Assembly (NCBI GenBank): GCA_022457155.1
Contig: JAJGOT010000039.1
Location: forward strand, 405,001-469,000
DNA from: Cladopsammia gracilis
Taxonomy: Eukaryota > Cnidaria > Anthozoa > Scleractinia > Dendrophylliidae
Direction: 5' to 3'
Length of the DNA stretch: 64,000 bases
Of the stretch, positions 4,126 to 60,520 are shown one piece after another. The position numbers were made by a program, and so were the translations under genes. How positions within the stretch are numbered: the stretch's first letter is position 1; every line of letters begins with the position of its first letter. The notes under the pieces are model-generated. The model worked only from the letters and a program-made list of their open reading frames with translations, searched no databases and was not told the DNA's origin.

Positions 4126-5465
4126 TAACTTAAGTCAGGCGGTGTGCGTCACGAGATTTGACCAATAGCAAGCCGTTGTTTAAACAATAGTCCTCGCGGC
4201 AAACAAGAAGCTATTTCAGCGCGTGGAGTTGAAAAAATTGTTCCTTTTCAAGGATTTCGGCGGTGTGAATTGAAAATGTTTTCAGGCAGAATTAAAGAGA
4301 AATATCCCTTCTTCGTTATGGCTACAATTAAATGTTACATTCGAGCACAATGACTGCCTTAGCTGATCTCAAAGTAAACCTACTCGGTTCAATTGCCACA
4401 TTATCGTCAACTGAACTTTCACACCTTTTCTTAGACTTCTCATTCCTTTACACGTTTGTTTTTCGTCAATAATTTGGGACATACAGTTAATTTAGCCTTT
4501 CTTCTTTGAGAATTTCGGGGTCTACCCGGGTCTACCCCTTTTAGTTTTTATCTCGTTAATGTGCATGCGCATTAAACGAGATATAGGTATCATGTACAAG
4601 AAAAAGGGACAAAAGTTGTTAACAAAAGTTTGTGGACTTTTGTCCGGAGAGGTAGTTCTTTATACAAGCTATATTATGGCATTGAGGATATAGTTGGTTA
4701 AACCGGTTAGGATTTCAAGAAGGTCGTCACATACGGCCACTAAAATTTTTGGGGAGCTCCCCCGGACCTATTGTTAATTTCCCTAGGGTATTGGGATGTC
4801 ATGTCATGTCATGTTTTTAAGTGGATGTGTCCGAGACGGCTTAATTGATCTTCAAAGGTTTAAGAAATTTGTGTTTTTCTTGTCAATCATTTTTCGTAAA
4901 GCCATAAGACCTCGTTTAGAAGGGTAAAAAAGGTCAAATGTATGTTCTTGGGAAACGCAGTTTTAGAAATTCACGGTGTATTTTTATAATGAATGGAGAC
5001 GTTTTGAGGAAGTTAAATGGCACGGGAAAGTTTGTGTTTTTATATGAGCGATAATATAATAAATTGAGGAATAATCAATTAAGGAAAATAACGAAATATA
5101 ATATCCAATGTATTCAACACTTTTGAGAGATTTGACAGATCGTAAAGTATAAATAGGTGATGTCATGTTTAATTCTCGCGGAGAATGCAGAGTGAATTTT
5201 TGTGTTTAGTTAAATATACGTATTGGATTCGTTTAGCAGTAAAATTTTGTTCCTAAAGATTGTTTTTTTGTATGTGTTGATAGTTTGTCGAGATTTTTGA
5301 GGAAAACAGTAATTAGTAATTTCAGTTTTGAATGGGTAAAAATGTTGAGGTGTCATGATTATGCAATAGTATGCAAGAGAGGTGAGATTTTGTCGACTAA
5401 GCTAATGAAGTATCAATCTTTCGGTTTGATTATGCAAGAGTATGGATTTGGCTTTTGTTCTATTT
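4126..5465. repeat. repeat unit, copy 1 (4537-5050), no gene
   Basis: From about 4537 to 5050 the sequence is closely repeated in direct orientation at 8530-9050. It starts with a hairpin around TCTCGTTAATGTGCATGCGC and runs through GGGAAAGTTTGTGTTTT and ATATGAGCG. No gene-like ORF was found in the stretch. The flank to 5465 is AT-rich and also has weak similarity to about 9100-9140. Confidence 0.6.
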
Positions 5466-5816
5466 GGCATGTTGTAAAACCTGGACTGGATTGGAGTGGA
5501 ATGCACTGGACTGGATTTGTAAAGCATGGACTGGATTTGTAAAAGGTGGATTTGTAAAAGGTGGATTTGTAAAAGGTGGATTTGTAAAAGATGAATTGTA
5601 AAAGGTGGATTTGTAAAACGTGGATTTGTAAAACGTGGATTTGTAAAACAAAAAAAATCAACAATGAAAAACAATGAAACATTTATTTATTTTGTTTGCA
5701 GATTCTTTTCTTTCTCTTTTTACCTTGATTACCATACAGTGATCCGATCAAACAACGTCAATGGGATACATTCCAAATAATTCATTCTTTACTTTTACGA
5801 TTAATTCACTTCAACA
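5466..5816 (+). repeat. left inverted arm with 15-bp tandem array
   Basis: The array of TTTGTAAAAGGTGGA-type units runs from about 5513 to 5648. The unique inner arm then runs to CACTTCAACA at 5816. The 15-bp period is a multiple of three, so all frames stay open; the ORFs reading FTNPPFTNPP or YKSTFYKSTF here are artefacts. Confidence 0.85.
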
Positions 5817-6305
5817 TTAACTGTAACGAAAGCATAATAAGCAATAATTCCCTAGTTTCCTTTATATTGTATCAGAACGCAATAGTTCAACGACAACAAG
5901 AACAAAAAACGAAACATGGGTGCTAGACGCGTTAACACTGTTGAATCAACAAAAGTTTTACAATAATGTCCAAGCGTTCGACCTAGTAACGAAACAACAG
6001 CAACAATAAATGTAAGTGTGGCGCTGGTCACCTCGCTAAACCTAATACAAGATGATGAAAAACCTAATACATGATGATGCTCCCCTGATTCGACAGGTGA
6101 TTTAAAAAAAAACGTTATACTCTTCAGCTTAGTAACTGTGAACTAAAGTTAACGCGATCTTTTTGCATCATTTTTTTTTAAGTTCGTAATCGTAACCTCT
6201 TGCAGGCGCAAAAAAAAATGTGATAGAAACGCTTTTGACAAACGTTGTTCATTTCTTGTTTAATATTTACATATATATAAATATCGATAACGATTATGAT
6301 CCAAT

Positions 6306-7190
6306 CTAATCAAGCCGCGCGCATTTGTTTCCGTCAGAATAAACCTCGCCCCTGTACGGGTTGGTGAGATTGGGGTTCTCAAGCGAGTACATTAGAAGAC
6401 CTAGAGACCAGATGTTAGCCTTCTGAAGATCTTCTTGACTTGCGAACTTCAATTCGTCGAGCTGAATCTCTGGTGCCATGTAAACAGGGGCACCACGACA
6501 GGTAGATTCCGTTCTTGTTTCCAGAAACGAGCCGGTCTGGATGTCTAGTAATCGGCTGAGGCCAAAGTCTGCGAGTTTGCACACTATTGGGCATTTACCA
6601 TACGATGTTGTGATATCATTCTTATCGTAGTGTTGGTTGCAGACGAGAGTATTCCCAGGCTTCAAATCTCAGTGGGCAATACCGTTGTCATGAAGAAAGG
6701 CAAGTCCAGTTACTGCATCTCTAGCACAAACCAGTAACAAGTCGGCGAATGAAGAAAAGTCGAACTCAGCATCGACAAAATGGACGAAGTCCTCTAGCGT
6801 AGACACTTTTTTCTCAACACCAAGGGGACCGAAGTCGAAGCACGAATGCTCCATCATGATCGTGTGGGGCTCCTGGCAAAACTTTAAAAAACAGGAGATG
6901 TTTCGGTGGCCTTTCACGCTATGCAATGTAGCAGCTTCTTTTTCGAAACGTCGTTTAGCATCTGCCGCTTCCCCTTTGAGTTTCTTGATGACAACACAAT
7001 GCTCCTCGTCGGTGCATTTCGCCAAATAAACAGATCCAAATGTGCCACTCCCTATCTCTTCCTTCATGCATATTGTATTCCATGTAAACTCTGGCAAAGA
7101 AAACTGCCGTCTTCGCTTTTTAAGAGAAAGAGATGGAAGCTTGAAAGCTGCCATCTCAATCACAAGCGCACCGTGAAGCTTTCGCGCCAA
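6306..7190 (-). pseudogene. protein kinase, nonsense mutation in HRD motif
   Basis: Reading from ATG at 7190, the kinase fold is clear: Gly-rich loop in EEIGSGTFGSVYLAKC, the ATP-anchoring Lys in CVVIKKLKG, then LAFLHDNGIAH. The next codon is TGA at 6669-6671 where the family has Arg of HRD. The frame then resumes as DLKPGNTLV, ADFGLSR (DFG), PVYMAPEI (APE) and LQKANIWSLG, where the usual Asp is Asn. It ends at a stop just after subdomain IX, so the C-lobe is incomplete. CGA to TGA is a single CpG-type transition. The gene has no introns and lies wholly between the inverted arms of the foldback element, minus strand. The exact kinase subfamily is not recognised. It is probably a captured host gene copy, now dead. 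Confidence 0.8.
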
Positions 7191-7507
7191 AATTTAAATT
7201 ATGCAATATTAAATTGGTCAAAGGTCAAAACATTCTATTTATGGATGCATGTGTTGGTGGTTTTCACTGTCACGCCATCAAAAAATAAATTCGAAACCAT
7301 TTCATGAAAAAAGCTGATAAATTCAAATGTTATAAAATGGTAATAAATAAACAACATCTCCCAGTCTCAGTTCTGTACGGTACACCAGTCTTGAGTTATC
7401 CAAGTGTCAGGCTTAACACGACTCCCGCTGGTCGCTTAATGTATTTTAGCCTTCTTTGTTCTGAACGGAGGATTATATGTTCTTTTCGGAGTCATTTGTG
7501 TAGGGTG

Positions 7508-7902
7508 TTGAAGTGAATTAATCGTAAAAGTAAAGAATGAATTATTTGGAATGTATACCATTGACGTTGTTTGATCGGATCACTGTATGGTAATCAAGGT
7601 AAAAAGAGAAAGAAAAGAATCTGCAAACAAAATAAATAAATGTTTCATTGTTTTTCATTGTTGATTTTTTTTGTTTTACAAATCCACGTTTTACAAATCC
7701 ACGTTTTACAAATCCACCTTTTACAAATCCATCTTTTACAAATCCACCTTTTACAAATCCACCTTTTACAAATCCATCTTTTACAAATCCATCTTTTACA
7801 AATCCACCTTTTACAAATCCACCTTTTACAAATTCAGTCCATGTTTTACAAATCCAGTCCAGTCCATTCCACTCCACTCCAGTCCAGCTTTTACAACATG
7901 CC
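7508..7902 (-). repeat. right inverted arm with 15-bp tandem array
   Basis: This is the reverse complement of 5466-5816, with only occasional mismatches in the unique inner part (7508-7665) and a slightly longer 15-bp array (about 7674-7850). The outer end TTTTACAACATGCC abuts the second copy of GTTCTATTT at 7903-7911. Confidence 0.85.
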
Positions 7903-8529
7903 GTTCTATTTGGGAGCTAATTGAAAACATAAGCTTACCGCAATATTGCGTTACGTGTTAGCATTTCTTATTCACGGTTTGGCTGTGGCGTAATACAATC
8001 AATCTATTTTGAACAAATACGCTACACTAACATGAAAATTATTTATAGTCACACTCGAGACTCTTTTGTTACTCATGACTTTTATTGATTTGCTGGCTCC
8101 TAAAAGGGCTCTTGCCCTTACGCCGGCTATAATAAACACAAGCAACAAGTCGCATTACATCCGTCTAAAAACTAATACTACACTACATTCACCTACTTGT
8201 ATTCATAGAAATATACATATATTTGCCTCAATCAAACAGTGGGCTGGCATAAACGTAGCAGTCGCTAGACTGTCAAAAATGCCAACGAAGGTTTTAGCGA
8301 GCTCCACGCAGCTATAAAGCGTAGCGAATACAAGCTCAAATTACAGCCTTTACTGAGACACTTACGATACGACCAAAAACAGATCACTGGATTCACCCCT
8401 CTCATAAAATAGAAGTCTGTATACGGGTGAACATTTCAAGTTCGTTTACCAACAGGTTGCAACTGAACTGACTGAAAATTCTAAAAACTGACAGGAATCT
8501 TCTGCGACACCTCCTTTCAACAACCTTGA
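7903..8529. repeat. TE-derived flank, no gene
   Basis: A stretch at about 7922-7985 (aaaacataagcttaccgcaa...) recurs at about 21850-21912, so it is a dispersed repeat into which the foldback element seems to have inserted. The part at about 8365-8465 is an inverted copy of 9517-9600. No supported coding region. Confidence 0.5.
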
Positions 8530-47700: not shown

Positions 47701-50700
47701 GGTATAAAAAAAACTAAAACCAGGTGTTCATCAAAATATAGTTTTTGTTTCTGTTTATCAATGTCGTAAAATATTATGTCACCCTAGCAACAGAGAAATT
47801 AATGTTATTTTGAAGGCTTCAATACACTCACGGTTTAGGGTCAGTGCTCATCGTTATATGCCTTAGAACTGCGCATTTCGACAGAATTGGCACCAGAAAT
47901 GAATTTTAAAAGACAAAAATAAAAATATTCAAGGAAAGTGTATTCCATCAGCTTGTGAATCTGCTTACCGTGAGATTTCTGTGCCTCGTCGTGAGACCGT
48001 GAGATTGCCCTCAAAATCGTGAGTCTCACGGCAAAACCGTGAGAGTTGAGAGGTCTGAGAAAGCTCTGGCCGATTGAACCACCTGTGGCTCATGTGCAGT
48101 TTTCCCCTCACCCACCATACATACCACCATCCTATTCTGTCCACCTTCTCATTACAACCACTTTGTTATTATATTGTGCCTACATGTATACATGACCAGT
48201 AAAATGATTTCAAGCCTGTTACACAAGTAATGGTAAAAAGAGGTAATTCATGTACTATTTTTTCTGTCAATTTTTGACATGGTATTGCAGGTTTTGCCGA
48301 GTTTGTTTTTCCAATGTTGTGGTTTTGGGCACACCTAGTGTCCACCTCACTACTGTAAAATCCTCTATACTAGTCGGGTCTTCTAATTTGTGTTACTGTA
48401 TTCTACCACTTGCAGGTACTTACATCCCAAAGAAAGAAATTGAAGTTGTAGAAACAATCCGTGCAACAATTATCCAGCCAAACCAAGCCATCAGGCTCAG
48501 AGCTAGAAAAGAAACAAAGGTAACAGATGTTGATGTTAAAGAACAGCTTTTTTTTTCATATTAAGGCACAGTGGTCTGTATATTGTTTCGGGTGCTGAAG
48601 TTTCGATCTGTGTTTCAAAGCCTTTTATCTCTATAAGTCCATGAAGTCTGCAGTCTGTCCACAGTATTTTATTATTAGTTTCCTTAATAAAAATAAAGTT
48701 CACTTTCAAAAATTTTGGTAGATCGGAAATTAAATTGCCTGATCAGAGTATTACAGTTCTAAACATATACAATCATATATCATTCTCAGCATTCGGTATT
48801 TTGTTGTTCCATACCTTACCCATGGAATTTTTTTTGGTTTAACCCCCCCCCCCCCCCCCAACTCCTCTGGAACTCTGGAAATTCCAGTTTAGCCTCATAC
48901 TTTTCTTTAAAAAGTTTGGTTTTATGATTCCTCCTCTTCCCCCCCTTTGGAATTTCCAATGACCTTCCATGGATAATTCTTGGAACCACTCATTTTTTCA
49001 GTCTATTCAGTGATAATAATTATTGTTGTTTGTGATTATGTGTAGCTGCAGCTGCTGTAAAACCCAGAGAGTGTGTAAAACATTTAGAAAATAACAAATA
49101 TAATACAGTAATATGAATCTGTACAAACTATGAGTTTGCTTTGTCATTGATACAGGATCGGGAGGGAAACCTGCGTGTTGCTGGAGAGGAGTGGCTGGTG
49201 AAAAAGATAGGTGCTTACCTTCCAGGTGCTTATGAGGAAGTGGTGGATGTTGTTGATGCCTATGTATTGACTGAGAAGGTGAGATGCATGAAAGTCTTAA
49301 GAAATGCAATTTATTCTGCTGTTATATATAAATCCTTAGGAGTTTTTAATGTACAATAATTTTTTTCATTTCAGAAAGCTTTACACTTGCGTTCCACACG
49401 GACATTCAAAGATGATAAAGGCGTTTTACGCAAGAATGGTGAGGAATGGCTGATCACAATGGCTGATACTGAAGCCCACATTCCAAATGTGTATGAAGAG
49501 GTAAGAATTTATGATTTACCGAATATTTAAAATAACCTTTGTTAGCTTTTTTTTGCGTAGGTTTCATCCATTTCTTTGTGTTGTGTGTAGGGTCAATGAT
49601 GGGGTGTGGTGGAGTGTGATTTGTGGTGTAATAGGGTATGGTGGGGTATAGTGTAATGTGGTGTCGATGTGGTGGGTTACAGGCTGTGACATCATGGGTT
49701 GGGTGTAGTTTGGTGGGGTGTGGTGGGTATCCCATGGTATGAAGATGACATTTGGCAAGCTTTGGTGTTTGCAGGCCGTCCAAAAGATATTTTCCATCAT
49801 AAATGTTTAAAAGATTAGGTGCAATTTTCATGAATTTCTTCAAAAAGTGGGTGTCCATAGGACGCCCGAACACCCTGCTGGCTAAAAGCTTGGGTGTTTG
49901 ACTGGTGGCGTTTGGCGTAGTAGTATACAATGGAGCTTGGTGAAGTGAGTCATGGTGTGTTGGCTTAGTAGTATGCAATGGAGCTTGGTGGAGTGAGTCA
50001 TGGTGTGTTGGATAAGTAGTATGCAATGGAGCTTGGTGGAGTTAGTCATTGTGTTGGATAAGTAGTATGCAATGGAGCTTGGTGGAGTGAGGTATAGTGT
50101 GTTGGATAAGTAGTATGCAATGGAACTTGGTGGAGTGAGACATGGTGTGTTGGATAAGTAGTATGCTGTGGAGCTTGGTACAGTGAGGCATGGTGTGTTG
50201 GCTTAGTAATAGTATGCAATGAAGCTTGGTGGAGTGAGGCAAGGTATGTTGGATAAGTAGTATGCAATGGAGCTTGGTGGAGTGAGGTGTGGTGGGTTGG
50301 ATAAGTAGTATGCAATGGAGCTTGGTGGAGTGAGGCATGGTGTGTTGGATAAGTAGTATGCAATGGAGCTTGGTGGAGTGAGGTGTGGTGGGTTGGATAA
50401 GTAGTATGCAATGGAGCTTGGTGGAGTGAGGCATGGTGTGTTGGATAAGTAGTATGCAATGCAGCTTGGTGGAGTGAGGTGTGGTGTGTTGGATAAGTAG
50501 TATGCAATGGAGCTTGGTGGAGTGAGGTGTGGTATGTTGGATAAGTAGTATGCAATGGAGCTTGGTGGAGTGAGGTGTGGTGGGTTGGATAAGTAGTATG
50601 CAATGGAGCTTGGTGGAGTGAGGCAAGGTATGTTGGATAAGTAGTATGCAATGGAGCTTGGTGGAGTGACGTGTGGTGTGTTGGATAAGTAGTATGCAAT

Positions 50701-53700
50701 GGAGCTTGGTGGAGTGAGTCATGGTGTGTTGGATAAGTAGTATCCAATGGAGCTTGGTGGAGTGAGGCATGGTGTGTTGGGGTTAAGGGAAGTGTGGTAT
50801 GAACCTCATTCCTTGAGCCTTTGCTGCTTTCAGAATGGTGCAAGGGCAGGAGTAGATACCCCTGGAAAAGGCTGGCAAAATACGTTGTACTTGTGGAGTA
50901 TTTTGTCATGTGACAGTCATGATGAATTGGTGTTTCTGGAGGTTCTTTTCAGTGATTAGCAGCCATTTTTGTTTTCTATTTTTGTTTTCATCATGTTTTT
51001 TGCAATAAAATGCACCAGGATTTTTGGAGTAATTTGGCAGGCTTGTCCAGGAGTGTCTATGCCCACCGTGCCAAGCAGTGAATGCCTTGGGGATGAGATT
51101 GGTGTAGTGTGTTGAGGTGGGGTATTGTGTGTAGTTTGGTGGGATGGTGTAATATGGTGCGTGGTGGGGTAAGTGGGGTGTTTTGAGGGGTGGCAATTTA
51201 GGTCATTGTGAAGAAAAATGGGGTGGGGTTTGACTGCTACATTCTGTAGTCAGTTCACCGATTGGAAACTAGACATGAGCTTTTTATCCTGATGGTAAGC
51301 ATAATAGTACAGTAGCATAGAAAGGGTTATCCTCAAGATGTAATTATCTTTGCTACAGGTTGTTGGAGTTGTTGACATCACAACACTGAACAATCGGCAA
51401 TACTGTGTCATTCTTGATCCAGTTGATAAAGATGGCAGACCCCAACTGGGACAGAAAAAACTTGTCAAGGTACGATACATTTAGTGTATTCATTTGGTTT
51501 TATTCTAACTTCTAATTTACCTCTTTGTCTGTTCATAAACCTGATGTTAATTTAAGAAAAAAAACTTGTCAAGGTACTCAATAAAAACCTTTTTAAAAGG
51601 TTTTTGTAATTCTTGCTTTAAGATATTATGGAGTACCTCAGTGGTATTTATTTTTGTGGGACTTTAATTTCATGAAAATAGATGAGGAATATTTCATGAG
51701 TCTTAAACTTCGTAGTTTGGCACTAGAATTGTGTTAAAAGAAAGTAAATTTTGTAAAAAAAATTTAAAATGCTAATCCAGAGTGCCTTGTCAGGTGCGCA
51801 CTCATTTACAGGGTGTTCATTAGGCATCGGAGATCGGAGAATTCTCCGCCTACTACACAGAATTCTCCGACTAAATTTCGATGGCAATATGTAGCTATCT
51901 TCGCTCTTTCATTAATATTCTCCTGTTACTTTACACTATTCTCCTGCTACTACAATTCTTAATGAAAACCCTGATTTACAGCTTCTCATAGCGTACATCA
52001 AGTACCAAAGAAGAAGAGATTGTGGAGAAGGCAGATGCTGATGTGCATAAAAATATTTGTGATCTCAAAATCTGCACTTCATATTTTAATTGTACATGTG
52101 AAATAGCTATTTTTGCAATATTAGAACCATAAGAAAACTGAAACCAGGTTTTACATGTTCATTTGAGACAAAGCACATTTGTCAAAAGATATGTTGTAAT
52201 GCCTGACACTTCATTAATTCACAAATCAAGGCATATTTCCATCCCTCGTGCATAAAGGGTTTTGTTTTGTTTTAATTTCACGTCGTTAATTTTCGCAGTT
52301 ACTTTTTTTGAAAATTGCGGAAATTTTGTCCTGTGAAAATAAGTACCATTAAGGTAAATATTAGTGAGGAATTACCTGTGCAGCAGTGGCTTTGAAGGCA
52401 GGTGCAGTGAAATGGTATACACTGTCTCTGTGTGTGGTGGCAACACTGTGAAGTCACATAACTCTAGGAGGGAAAGAATGTGAGTGGTTGATTATTTGTC
52501 ATGGACATCATGTAGAGAACTAAGATCAATTTTTCAATATTAGTGACTACCAGTAGACAATACTCAATAATATTTTAGGATTTGCTAATTATCAGTGTGA
52601 ACATTTTGTTGACCCATACAGGGAGAGAAATCCTTTTTCCTGCTCCCAGAAGAGAAACTTGAGCATGGCATCCAAGATGTGTTTGTTCTCGGTGAAGATG
52701 AGGGCTTGATTCTGAAAGCAAATGAAGGTTTCATTGATGTTGATGAAAAGGAGGTAATTATGTCAAATAAAAAGGATGGTTGTAAAGCCATCCATACTCC
52801 CACTATGGAACCTTGATCTTTCACTTGTCCAGAATTATTGTGCATTTTTGACACTCTAATAATTTTAGAAACTCCCCTAAAACATGATGGGAACACTCAT
52901 CAAAAAAATTTTAATAAGAGTCCCTAATTTGTATTGACAGTAACATTAATTTCATCATCAAAGTAATCTACTTGCACTGAGATTTTGAAAGAAGTTGTAC
53001 ATGGATATATACCTCCTGGGTTTTTTTTGTCCCATATAAAAAATGACTGGGGTGATCAATGCACCTTTTAGGGACAAAGATTGTAGATTGGTACCGCTTA
53101 GGGTACTAAAATCTACAATGAACACCATTAGAATTATTTTGGTTCCATTTTTGTGTATTGAGTCAAAAAATATGACTGCAGGAATATGACATGTCCTGTT
53201 TTAGAATTGGCTATCTAATGATCGTTATTGATATCCATCCTGCACAGAAAGAGGTCCCAAGACGACCTGGTGATCGCTGGATGATCCGCGGGCCCAGTGA
53301 GTATGTTCCACCAGTGCAGGTTGAAGTTGTGGCACGCAGAAAAGCCATTCCACTGGACGAAAATGAAGGTATCTACATCCGTGACATCAAGACTGGAAGA
53401 GTGCGGGCTGTGTGTGGACAGACATACATGCTGACTCAGGATGAAGAACTCTGGGAGAAGGAACTTCCGCCGACAGTTGAACAGCTTCTGGCCGGAGGAA
53501 AGGATCCCCTGGCTGACAGAGGAACAAGGAATGTTATGGTACCACCAATGCCGAGTAAGAATATGTTCATTGGCACTGGTATTAGACTTGAATTGCACTG
53601 CTCTTAGCCAATTTTTTTCATGGATATTATTAGTTAATTATGAGTTTCTAAAGATTGTAATTGGCTGAAGGAATTTTACCCTGTCTAAATGAAGTTATGT

Positions 53701-56700: not shown

Positions 56701-59700
56701 CTATTACCCGGGCTACTATAACAAACACTTTTGGGGCAATTTCGCATACTGTGAACTATTTTCAGTCAAGTGTTGTACGACAGGACTTCAACTACTGTTA
56801 CAGCGGTGTTCTTTACAGCGAGTTGTCTACAACATACAAGATTTGCACCAAGAGTTAATGAGCCTTTACATTGTGTCTTGGTTGTACCTATTTTCCTTTG
56901 GAATCTTGGAAAATGATCGGAACTTTTTGAAGACCCTCAGTCAATCTTCGGAAATTTTTAGACAATATTTGTAAAACATCAGTAAGGCATGTCAGGTTAG
57001 CCGTGGCGTAAAATAGCAACCATTCTTGTCTGTCTACATTGCAGAATTCAGCAAAGATCATCCGATCTTCAGTATTCGGACTTGATGAGAATCACAAAGT
57101 TCGAAACAAGTTTACTTTCCCAGCAAACAATTTGAACATCACAAGCGTTGACATCCAGTCTGTGGAGCCAGTGGATCAACGCACCAGAGATGCACTGCAA
57201 AAATCCGTTCAGTTAGCCATTGAGATTACAACTAATTCACAAGAGGCTACAGCAAGGTGAGGGCTTCTGCAAGCCGTTGGGAATAAGGGGAAACAGACGG
57301 TCTACCTCATTCCTAGGGTCTTTCTTCCGGTGGTGGATCTTTGGGAGTGGCCCGCCCCCCCTCCCTTATGTTGGCAAAAATGAAGAATGAATGAAAAAAC
57401 ATGTTTTCAGTCTCTACATTTTCATCCCCCCTTTACTCACTCCCCCCTTATTCACTCTCCCCCTTATTCACCCCCATTATTTACTCCCCCCTTATTCACT
57501 CCCCCTTATTCACTCCCCCCTTATTCACTCCCTCCTTATTCACTCCCTCCCCCTTATTCACTCCGCCCCCTTATTCACTTCCCCTCTTATTCACTCACCC
57601 TTATTCACTCCCCCCCCCCCCCCTTTACGATAGAGTCTGGATCCGCCACTGTCTTCTTCCGCTCCCCTGATGCTAGATTACTTTCCATTTCCTATATCCC
57701 CTACTTCCGGTCCTTGCCTCTTCCCTTGCGTTTTATTGATGCAAAATATTTTGCAATGTGGCGAAATCTTTTCCAGTTTCTCCATCTTCCCATCACCTTC
57801 ACGGCTTGAGAATCTCGCTTCATATTGTCTCTTTTTTTCGATCTTCCGTTGACTTCCCATATCCTATCCCCTAGCACGAATCTTTTTGCATTCATTTTCG
57901 TTGCCCTCCGATCTGTGGACTTAAGGTGGTTCGACTGGGTTTTTGAGTGACGATACCGTTTAGCTTTGAGAAACTTGTGTACCACCACAAACGATCCAAC
58001 GGAAAATCGATTGCCACAGCTGTACTAGGGAAAGATTAAAGTTTCAGATCAGGTAAGTTTTATGGAAATCGGAGTTGCCAAAGCAACGTTACGACGTCGT
58101 TCCCTGTTTTACATAATACCGAATTACTTGTCATCAAGAGATAATTTTGGAAAACGCTCTCTGGATCTTCGACCTGACGTACTTGTCCTAAGGTCTACAA
58201 AATTTTACAAATTTCTATGGAAGCGTTTTCGAGAAAATTTCGAGTGAAGTTTTAAGGTGTTAAAATACAACAAAAACAAAACAATTTTGAAATGTTATTG
58301 TAACTTATGTCTACAAGGCTTGATGAAATAATATTTTGGTCTTAAATGAATTTTATACCATCCAAATACCTTTGGTGAAAATCTGAAGGAAATCCAGGTG
58401 TGTTTGTTTTCTCTAAGGTTTTCTACTTCTAAATCTTTTGTCTTTTTCAGGCATGAAGCAGAGCGGCTAGAGCAAGAAGCCAAGGGTCGCCTGGAGAGGC
58501 AAAAGATCACAGACGAGGCTGAGGCCGAACGCGCAAGGAAGGAGTTGCTCGAGTTGCAGGCTCTGAGCGCAGCAGTGGAGTCAACAGGTCAAGCTAAGGC
58601 TGAAGCACAGTCCAGGGCAGAGGCGGCGAGGATTGAAGGAGAAGCTGCGGTACAGCAGGCGAAGCTGAAAGCAGAAGCTGCTAAGATTGAAGCTGTAAGT
58701 CGTGCTACCTTGTTGTTATACTAAGTACTTAGAGCGGGTTTCGATCGTATCGAAAGTATCTTCGCGTTTACTTTAATTTTGCATTGTTACGCTTTGCGAG
58801 TCTGCAGAGGAAATCCTATGGAACAGTAGCTTCCTGTGGTACCGTTTGTTATGATGATGTACAGGGTGATTCGAACTTTTGAGTCTGTGGGTGAAATCCT
58901 AAAGTTAGTGACCATTCAAATGAAAGCTACTGAGCAGTACTTTCCTGTTGTACTGTTTATTACACTATACAAGGCGATTCTAACTTTCGAGTCTGTGGCT
59001 GAAATCCTAAAGTGCGACCATTTAAGTGAAAGCTATTGAGCAGTACCTTCCTGTGGCACTGTTTATTACACTGTACAAGGTGATTCTAACTTTCGAGTCT
59101 TTATATAAAATCCTAAAGTGTGCGGACCATTTAGATAAAAGCACTTCATTAGTACTTTCCGGTGATACTGTTTGTTTTCATTTTTCCCTCCTGTAAGGAA
59201 TCTTCACTGCAGCGTCTTAGCAAAACACGAGAAGCAGAACTGAAGTACCAATCAGAACAAGACAGTCTGGATGTATCTAAGGCCAAAGAAATGGCAGCCA
59301 TTGAGACAGATAAATTTCAGAACATGGTGTCATCTATTGGTGCTGATACTATACAGGCAATCGCCACTGCTGGGCCGGAGATGCAGGTAACCATGGTAGA
59401 ATAAGTGTATGTATGGTAGGTAAGGGAAAGGAGGGCGCGCACGACTCACAGGTGGTCCACACGAGTCACAGGTGGCCCACACGAGTCACAGGTGGTCCAC
59501 ACGACTCACAGGTGGTCCACACGAGTCACAGGTGGTTCACACGAGTCACAGGTGGCCCACACACGAGTCACAGGTGGCCCACACACGAGTCACAGGTAGC
59601 CCACATGACTGACAGGTGGTCCACACGAGTCACAGGCGGTTCACACGAGTCACAGGTGGCCCACACACGAGTCACAGGTGGCCCACACACGAGTCACAGG

Positions 59701-60520
59701 TGGCCCACATGACTGACAGGTGGTCCACACGAGTCACAGGTGGTTCACACGAGTCACAGGTGGCCCACACACGAGTCACAGGTGGCCCACATGACTGACA
59801 GGTGGTCCACACGAGTCACAGGTGGCCTACACGAGTCACAGGTGGTTCACACGAGTCACAGGTGGTTCACACGAGTCACAGGTAGTCCACACGAGTCACA
59901 GGTGGCCCACACATGAGTCACAGGTGGCTCACATGACTCACAGGTGGTCCACACGACTCACACGTGGCCCACACGAGTCACATGTGGCCCACACGAGTCA
60001 CAGGTGGCCCACACGAGTCACAGGTGGCCCACACGAGTCACAGGTGATCCACACCAGTCACAGGAAGCCCACAACTAACCACTACACCGTCGCACAGGCT
60101 TACCACTACAACACCGCACAGGCAAATCACTACACCACCGCACAGGCTAACCACTACACCACCGTGCCTCCGCAAGTGTATTTAAAGCAGCGGCTAAATA
60201 CTGCAACTTTAGATTTAGTTCTGCATTGAAATACGTAAGACGCGCTGTATTAGCTTCATGTAAATTCAAGGCTGTTGTGCAATGCGATGCTGTACCTCCC
60301 TGTTTGTGGCGCTGGTTGATATGATATTAATTTACTCTGAACTAGTTGTTTTCATTGTTTGTGTTCCTAACACGCGTTGTTTGTTGTTGCACTGTAGGTC
60401 AAACTGCTGCAGTCGTTGGGTCTGAAGTCCACACTGATTACAGATGGTAGCTCGCCTATCAACTTGTTTAGCACTGCTCAGGGTCTGATCGGCGCCATTC
60501 AACAGCCAACTTACGAATAA
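44728..60520 (+). CDS. MVP: major vault protein, 17 coding exons, complete
   Basis: Coding exons: 44728-44877, 46378-46515, 46989-47169, 48416-48519, 49156-49278, 49375-49500, 51359-51469, 52622-52753, 53248-53554, 53810-53908, 54323-54434, 54746-54943, 56302-56443, 57045-57256, 58451-58694, 59198-59386, 60398-60520. Every junction is GT-AG and in phase; the total of 2691 nt gives 896 aa, close to human MVP (893). Residues 1 to about 490 are the beta-rich vault repeats ([57 protein letters not shown]). About 510-650 is the shoulder domain ([37 protein letters not shown]). About 650-800 is the Ala/Glu/Lys-rich cap helix that forms the coiled coil. The protein builds the shell of the cytoplasmic vault particle. 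The sequence shows no break. Introns carry several minisatellites and MITEs. Confidence 0.96.
44967..45235 (+). repeat. tandem repeat in MVP intron 1
   Basis: Three copies of a unit of about 85 bp (gtctgtggacgaaatcctat...accatttgttctaactttta). Related units recur in MVP intron 15. Confidence 0.75.
45791..46320. repeat. MITE in MVP intron 1
   Basis: TTAAAGTGCTACTACAATGA at the left and the inverse (catagtggcactttaa) at the right. TTAA at both ends. Confidence 0.7.
46641..46988 (+). repeat. tandem copies of the exon-3 acceptor region in MVP intron 2
   Basis: The real acceptor (TTTTGTAG|GATATCCGCC at 46989) has two upstream look-alikes, CTTTGTAG|GATATCTGCC (46664) and CTTGTAG|GATATCCACC (46824). 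Each is followed by a decayed start of exon 3 (caagacccatttcc). The period is 160-165 bp. Confidence 0.85.
47434..47500 (+). repeat. tRNA-like SINE fragment in MVP intron 3
   Basis: AGTGGAGTAGTGGTTAGCTC resembles a polymerase III A box and GGTTCAAGGTC a decayed B box, with text beyond typical of a SINE body (ttccttagacaagaagcctt). The preceding 47230-47415 is self-similar (attaagcggtcacc). Confidence 0.5.
49914..50785 (+). repeat. 48-bp minisatellite in MVP intron 6
   Basis: About 18 copies of a 48-bp unit (ggataagtagtatgcaatgg...agcttggtggagtgaggc). The unit is 16 codons, so antisense frames stay open and encode [16 protein letters not shown] repeats; these ORFs are by-products of the period. 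A and G variants at a few positions alternate (gtgtggtgggtt / catggtgtgtt), pointing to higher-order duplication. Confidence 0.9.
53985..54125 (+). repeat. C/T-rich simple repeat in MVP intron 10
   Basis: CCCTCC/CTCCCC tract of about 140 bp, followed by ttaaccccctccctc twice. Confidence 0.85.
54961..55529. repeat. nested MITEs with tRNA-like core in MVP intron 12
   Basis: The outer inverted ends are CCGTAAAATGCCGTTTATAAG and ttataaccggcattttatga. An inner pair, atcaaaggcgtagagtgagg and its inverse, spans 55156-55473. Inside that is a tRNA-like segment (about 55284-55360; ggtggtacagtggtacggta ... ggttcaattctc). Confidence 0.7.
57420..57622 (+). repeat. TTATTCACTCCCCC simple repeat in MVP intron 14
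   Basis: About 14 imperfect copies of a 13-16-bp unit. Confidence 0.85.
58840..59165 (+). repeat. tandem repeat in MVP intron 15
   Basis: Three to four units of about 105-110 bp (gagtctgtggstgaaatcct-like, then accattcaaatgaaagct). This is the same family as the array in intron 1. Confidence 0.7.
59449..60068 (+). repeat. 20-22-bp minisatellite in MVP intron 16
   Basis: About 30 copies of GGTGGTCCACACGAGTCACA with variants (gcccacaca, gttcac). It sits between the last two introns' splice sites and does not disturb the exons. Confidence 0.9.

Follow-up and report, generated by a model that had tools for sequence, protein, structure and literature searches.

Positions 5466-7902 of the window (the whole stretch of DNA analysed, 64,000 nucleotides) are occupied by an element with long terminal inverted repeats, i.e. 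arms of 351 and 397 bp, between which lies a damaged protein kinase gene. The element and its flanks are composed as follows.

5457..5465, no strand: target-site duplication, left copy GTTCTATTT, 9 bp (sequence and script)
5466..5816, plus strand: left arm, with the outer end GGCATGTTGTAAAA, a CTGGACTGGA-type stretch, an array at 5532-5648 and a unique inner part at 5650-5816 (sequence)
5817..6350, minus strand: element sequence 3' of the kinase (comparison with other copies)
6345..7154, minus strand: kinase pseudogene, retaining ~270 N-terminal codons of what is a longer protein elsewhere (383 aa in P0001) (Pfam and comparison)
7155..7505, minus strand: element sequence 5' of the kinase, also present in other copies (comparison)
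7506..7902, minus strand: right arm, inverted, with an array at 7674-7833 and the outer end GGCATGTTGTAAAA reading inward (sequence)
7903..7911, no strand: target-site duplication, right copy GTTCTATTT (sequence and script)

The sequence-only reading of this DNA had described inverted arms with a 15-bp tandem array in each, perfect outer ends and a 9-bp duplication, and all of these were located. The arms are complementary at 99% over 224 nt (5593-5816 with 7506-7729) and at 95% over 132 nt (5466-5597 with 7771-7902), and their arrays comprise 7.9 copies on the left and 10.7 copies on the right. GGCATGTTGTAAAA occurs at both outer ends with 0 mismatches, and the two copies of GTTCTATTT are perfect. 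The agreement of 99% over 224 nt rules out a chance structure. A second copy of the element within the 64-kb window was not detected by blastn. Elsewhere in the window lie two large tandem arrays, one with a 48-bp unit (x17.9, 49919-50780) and one with a 20-bp unit (x31.1, 59440-60073).

The kinase, reported as an intronless gene on the minus strand, is present on that strand, where it reads from 7154 and matches the Pfam Pkinase profile at positions 4-191 of 263 (E 1.4e-29). However, it is a broken pseudogene with a truncated C-lobe, and full-length relatives (see below) carry a further exon-like stretch. With one in-frame stop codon (TGA, 6669-6671) inside the HRD motif and the end of the C-lobe deleted, the window kinase is dead and plays no part. 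GTTTAT after RGE was considered as a splice donor and rejected, as comparison with other copies shows that at this point of the window the kinase has been joined to element sequence from further downstream.

The stretch at 5817..6350 is common, up to the same point, to seven of the nine other kinase-bearing loci (L032, L033, L034, L035, L037, L038 and L039), and a shorter part of it is shared by L031 and L036. L045, in which the kinase was not detected, has the full extent of it as well. In L032, L033 and L034 this type of stretch lies next to transposase C-terminal sequence, which is absent from the window, and the earlier statement that the window copy carries no transposase was borne out.

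Copies of the window family in the genome

A search of the 878-Mb assembly with the window element (40 of 399 candidates scored) yielded at least 169 matches, and the window copy was compared with 37 fetched regions (20 + 17). Listing the copies with their flanking 9-mers, as had been proposed, revealed consistent ends. Sixteen copies were two-ended, 15 recognised by script and one (L032) missed by the script filter; L031 and L039 were not counted, because the single right 'end' of each deviated at three positions. Eight of the 16 are flanked by a 9-bp duplication, perfect in five (the window, L038, L046, L059 and L061) and with one mismatch in three, while one copy has an 8-bp duplication and seven, including L032, have none; these counts are not fully independent, as L051, L054 and L055 (no duplication) have common flanks and those of L052 and L061 (duplication) are alike. 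By our own arithmetic, the chance of at most one mismatch in a single 9-mer pair is ~1e-4.

The common sequence GGCATRTTGTAAAA was seen in 52 outer ends (A at position 6 in 41, G in 11), which were picked at two or fewer mismatches to those of the window and are therefore biased toward likeness. L035 represents an insertion within a repeat whose uninterrupted copy is found in L038, i.e. a paralogous empty site (L035 1-1396 and 3562-5001); its left border is exact and its right border has a small deletion. Because half of the copies with two ends show 9-bp duplications, and because the kinase is found among arms at ten places, we conclude that the window family is mobile.

Two candidates for an autonomous form within this family were rejected. 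The extra sequence of L039/L040 resembles nested inserts, and the L039 ORFs gave no good Pfam match; L038 has no ORFs of 100 aa or more beyond arms and kinase, and its interior is the uninterrupted copy of the L035 repeat. On C1464 (L039 3212-6848 and L040 4653-5576) a kinase-bearing copy is split by ~9.6 kb of nested elements, containing several minus-strand ORFs (the scanned ones without a good Pfam match) and a zf-RVT (LINE-type) ORF. In L043, two left ends lie in tandem at 1305 and 1725, each after the 9-mer AAAATATTT, as if one element had landed against another.

Kinase copies and their protein relatives

The genome search with the P0001 kinase (107 of 269 candidates scored) produced matches of 83-93% identity at ten places, all of them element copies with arm matches, while the remaining matches had 71% identity or less; a host parent gene ~90% identical to the window kinase was not found among the candidates scored. 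The window-type copies end at different residues, which fits internal deletions of one ancestral element. They differ by a few per cent, with dN/dS of at least 0.8 in 26 of 45 pairs and 0.35-0.70 in eight; the ratio was defined for 34 pairs (the other 11 had no synonymous change), and it includes misaligned ends (L031 against the window tail, L033 tail). A coding-like stretch comes after the kinase in L032-L034 and, by eye, is also joined to it in P0034 and P0012. This stretch matches the C-terminus of the transposase described below at 47% (E 2e-64, the query being a mix of copies), and Pfam and NCBIfam gave no useful match for this window-family fragment.

A protein search for relatives of the kinase returned 98 proteins with E <= 0.001. 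For 78 of these, E was 2.1e-26 or lower, and similarity fell off sharply after them. Names among the 78 point to the octocorals Dendronephthya gigantea and Paramuricea clavata, one other is called a serine/threonine protein kinase, and most are nameless. In P0058, P0060 and P0135, all from public contigs, the kinase runs in frame into a translated arm array and on past the translated outer end. P0058 and P0060 have a common junction and different sequence beyond the outer end, which indicates the same kinase-arm unit at two sites.

The array part of P0058 retrieved 45 proteins, including P0058 and P0060, in 37 of which (by a loose pattern) the array is followed by the outer end, in one of its three readings, and then by varied sequence. 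P0104, a pentapeptide-repeat protein, was rejected as arm-bearing. P0102, P0113, P0118, P0121 and P0137 are arm fusions with another common interior (M[PR]SDFAGFQCH...) and different outer flanks, i.e. a further multicopy subfamily. The arm pattern had 0 matches in viral contigs and 0 in genome contigs.

Full-length relatives

The longer kinases among the remaining genomic matches are 61-67% identical to P0001, several with open frames. Eight loci selected from these (L050 and L068-L074) were read upstream; C20, C1160 (twice), C285, C317, the second C272 copy and more, at 56-71%, were left out. All eight have an arm-like stretch upstream (GGCATACTGT, CTGGACTGGA, TTGTAAAA or TAGTAAAA array) oriented like the right arm of the window element, and the arrays in L069-L071 were also called by Tandem Repeats Finder. 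Seven of the eight arms are 88-100% alike, at different flanks, and L050 represents a second lineage. As these seven loci resemble close copies of one lineage, the sequences suggest about three independent lineages: the window type, the C953 type and the C1212 type. The kinase match is one unbroken frame in three loci (C1212, C953 and C1094) and is stopped or split in five.

Two of these loci, C953 and C1094, proved to be complete elements when read to their far ends, with homologous arms and a MULE-like transposase frame; they are apparently autonomous relatives of the kind that the sequence-only reading had proposed to look for. The C953 element, of 8673 bp, is flanked on both sides by CTTTGCTTT and the C1094 element, of 8654 bp, by GCAAAGATG, each a perfect 9-bp duplication; both units terminate exactly at inverted GGCATACTGT ends, at different genomic sites. 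Their identity is 97.8% across 8.1 kb and drops to 90% in the final 0.6 kb. The C953 arms, of about 174-190 bp, are diverged from those of the window but homologous to them, and C953-type arms contain 23-bp arrays. At both sites one pair of arms encloses the kinase together with the transposase frame. The open kinase frame has 434 aa in C953 and 422 aa in C1094 and is followed by an exon-like frame of 181 aa, absent from the window; the transposase frame, of 972 aa, is open in C953 and broken in C1094. The right end of the C272 copy was not found within 685550-686150.

The best Pfam match of the 972-aa frame is PF10551 MULE (residues 327-424, profile 2-97 of 99, E 0.0059), with a score of 17.4 bits, below the curated cut-off of 27.6 bits; no PDB match was better than E 2, and a Pfam scan at E up to 1 detected no PHD finger. 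A script located the motifs VDCTF (329), TDGEE (397), LRCDIH (417), ASES (528) and CDKGC..LCSH (709-724). By eye, we take VDCTF, TDGEE and ASES to be the Asp-Asp-Glu stations, the motif at 417 to be a C..H motif after the second Asp, and CDKGC...LCSH to be SWIM-like. Because the profile score is sub-threshold, we file the full-length element with the MULEs with moderate confidence.

The C953-type kinase retains the K, HRD, DFG and APE stations. Its exon contains DGTNCCAFLAL shortly before a GT donor-like site, and FLVDTH lies in the next exon-like frame; from a by-eye reading, we presume this part to be a papain-like cysteine protease (Cys, Asp-x-His), for which Pfam and PDB searches gave no support. 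In L078 (C997:800700-810600), a relative with ~37% kinase identity, the kinase and protease-like parts form one 584-aa frame, the AlphaFold model of which has a mean pLDDT of 69.5, lower over most of the protease part. Neither element arms nor a C953-type transposase were found within 9.9 kb at L078, which means that the kinase family also exists outside elements. C997 (L078), C964:1081504 and C1229:1802362 have identical scores (200.3 bits, 37% to P0001), and loci of this type are either host genes or another mobile family.

Selection on the kinase and kinase tree

Between C953 and C1212, the kinase (384 codons) has dS 1.25 and dN 0.12, i.e. dN/dS 0.096 (bootstrap 95% 0.064-0.138), and the second exon dN/dS 0.196. 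The ratio between C953 and C1094 is 0.41, based on 15 changes, and in comparisons with the window kinase synonymous sites are saturated, with dN about 0.21-0.23. Because the position of the arm is identical in the C953 and C1212 types, the simplest reading would be that the kinase already belonged to the element while it was being conserved. Selection within the element is the weakest link in our argument, because C1212 shows one arm only and a transposase was not detected across the 11.7 kb read there; by eye, a downstream frame in C1212 is reverse-transcriptase-like.

The kinase tree comprised 56 rows (sequences of at least 200 aa among P0001-P0065, and element rows), with P0055 and P0057 removed by hand and arm parts trimmed. 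The seven element-labelled rows fall within one well supported 13-row clade together with P0001, P0014, P0018, P0037, P0002 and P0049, and the element label requires four changes, not one. L050 and P0003 (the latter by eye of the C953 type), both unlabelled, are placed in the sister clade; if they are counted, arm-linked kinases span both sister clades.

Origin of the window element

Based on these observations, we suggest, with a probability of roughly 85%, that the window element belongs to a Mutator-like (MULE) foldback family of a cnidarian, probably an octocoral, whose own genes include the kinase, and that it is a non-autonomous member shortened by internal deletion. The autonomous form, of ~8.7 kb, would consist of an arm, the kinase gene, the protease-like exon, a MULE-like transposase with a SWIM-like motif and the other arm, and the kinase gene probably continues by splicing into the protease-like exon. 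A transposase supplied by an autonomous copy may recognise the repeated arms in trans, and short copies, such as that of the window, would have been moved by cut-and-paste, leaving 9-bp duplications behind.

The sequence-only reading had envisaged an active, gene-capturing foldback or Mutator-like family with a captured piece of a host kinase gene as its cargo. The family was indeed active, as its consistent ends and 9-bp duplications indicate, but host-gene capture was not upheld: the full-length relatives agree with the window family in where the kinase lies and which way it points with respect to the arm, and in its order with the transposase. Since these relatives hold the kinase together with the transposase and its coding sequence is conserved, we regard it as a gene of the element.

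A Pack-MULE or Pack-TIR origin, in which a foldback element captured a host kinase once or several times and amplified it as a passenger, has precedents in animals, namely Ssk-FB4 of Drosophila and 370 Pack-TIRs in 100 genomes, according to an excerpt of PMC8277862. It would also agree with the dN/dS near or above 1 among most recent window-type copies, with the four changes of the element label on the tree, with the arm-free relative at ~37% (L078) and with P0058/P0060 and P0135 being cut at different residues beside the array. Different cut points are, however, also expected from internal deletions of one ancestral element, and window-subfamily copies retain transposase sequence beside the kinase. 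A Pack-MULE should have an identifiable host parent outside elements, lack a transposase and carry a cargo that is no part of the autonomous element. Here the 83-93% matches are all element places, the eight examined loci at <=71% are also armed (107 of 269 candidates scored in this genome), and the window copy lacks a transposase, yet C953 and C1094, with the same kind of arms and target duplications, contain both kinase and transposase frame. As the kinase is moreover conserved between diverged arm-linked lineages, we consider such capture unlikely.

The MULE affiliation itself may be questioned, because the profile match is weak and more than one superfamily can give rise to foldbacks; Galileo, for instance, belongs to the P superfamily, as stated in an excerpt of PMC4079207. 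A P/Galileo-like or hAT-like foldback seems very unlikely to us, given the 9-bp duplication, the long arms, MULE as the only sensible Pfam match, and, by eye, the C..H motif after the second Asp and the SWIM-like C-terminal motif. An ordinary host kinase family beside which arms had landed, C953 and C1094 being segmentally duplicated copies of one host locus into which arms had inserted, would explain why the few named homologues are annotated as ordinary octocoral genes and why C1212 has a single arm. We find this extremely unlikely, as both units end exactly at inverted GGCATACTGT, each with its own perfect 9-bp duplication at a different site, and the transposase frame lies inside them.

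With the kinase regarded as an element gene, it seems on balance probable that an autonomous octocoral transposon lineage encodes and has for a long time maintained, under purifying selection, its own serine/threonine kinase spliced to a cysteine-protease-like domain, i.e. a signalling effector. In that case, many octocoral kinases annotated as host genes would be transposon genes, and expanded kinase families in octocoral genomes may reflect the spread of transposons. More tentatively, the kinase and its protease-like partner might serve the element as an accessory protein of its own, similar in role to the VANC/KIU proteins of plant MULEs; its target might be the transposase but would more likely be the host's control of the element. 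If conserved, a transposon kinase of this kind may affect the transposase or host silencing, which is testable.

Comparison with known systems

The published systems are compared here as they are described in excerpts of the respective papers. MULEs generate 8-11 bp duplications and may contain extra ORFs (PMC6446971), and Tetris was placed in Mutator on duplication length (PMC4079207). The duplication in our elements is 9 bp, perfect in the window, L038, L046, L059, L061, C953 and C1094, and their long terminal inverted repeats are a MULE trait too; the inverted arms of tandem repeats, variable in length, together with this duplication, are those of a foldback element. None of the open-access literature matches listed described a protein kinase gene carried by a Mutator-like transposon, nor was an octocoral example among them; for Nematostella, PMC9842752 mentions a possible pack-MULE.

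Ssk-FB4 of flies (Tan et al. 2021, PMC8277862), where the gene captured by the foldback shows signs of selection, is like the window family a non-autonomous foldback: its arms are long and repetitive, its duplications measure 9-10 bp and several of its copies carry a gene. It differs in representing a recent host-gene capture with a known parent, whereas in our family the gene resides in a full-length element and no parent was found. Rehavkus also has a 9-bp duplication, TIRs of up to 400 bp and a minisatellite near the end, but it is listed for arthropods and annelids and has a single ORF and a PHD finger (PMC6446971).

Tm1, a Mutator/Foldback element of root-knot nematodes, has composite arms, ~14-bp tandem motifs, 9-bp duplications and non-autonomous forms, as does our family, and the Phantom-like Mutator transposase in some of its copies links foldback arms to Mutator; its groups are histone-hairpin, MITE-like and transposase-bearing, and the excerpt mentions no kinase (PMC3169594). 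The VANDAL/Kaonashi (KIU) MULEs of plants are comparable in that one of their three element genes is a conserved accessory gene of once-host origin, which is said to help related elements mobilise. These MULEs are, in contrast, plant and non-TIR elements, the Ulp1 protease domain being found in VANC-type genes and no kinase being mentioned in the excerpt (PMC13317346).
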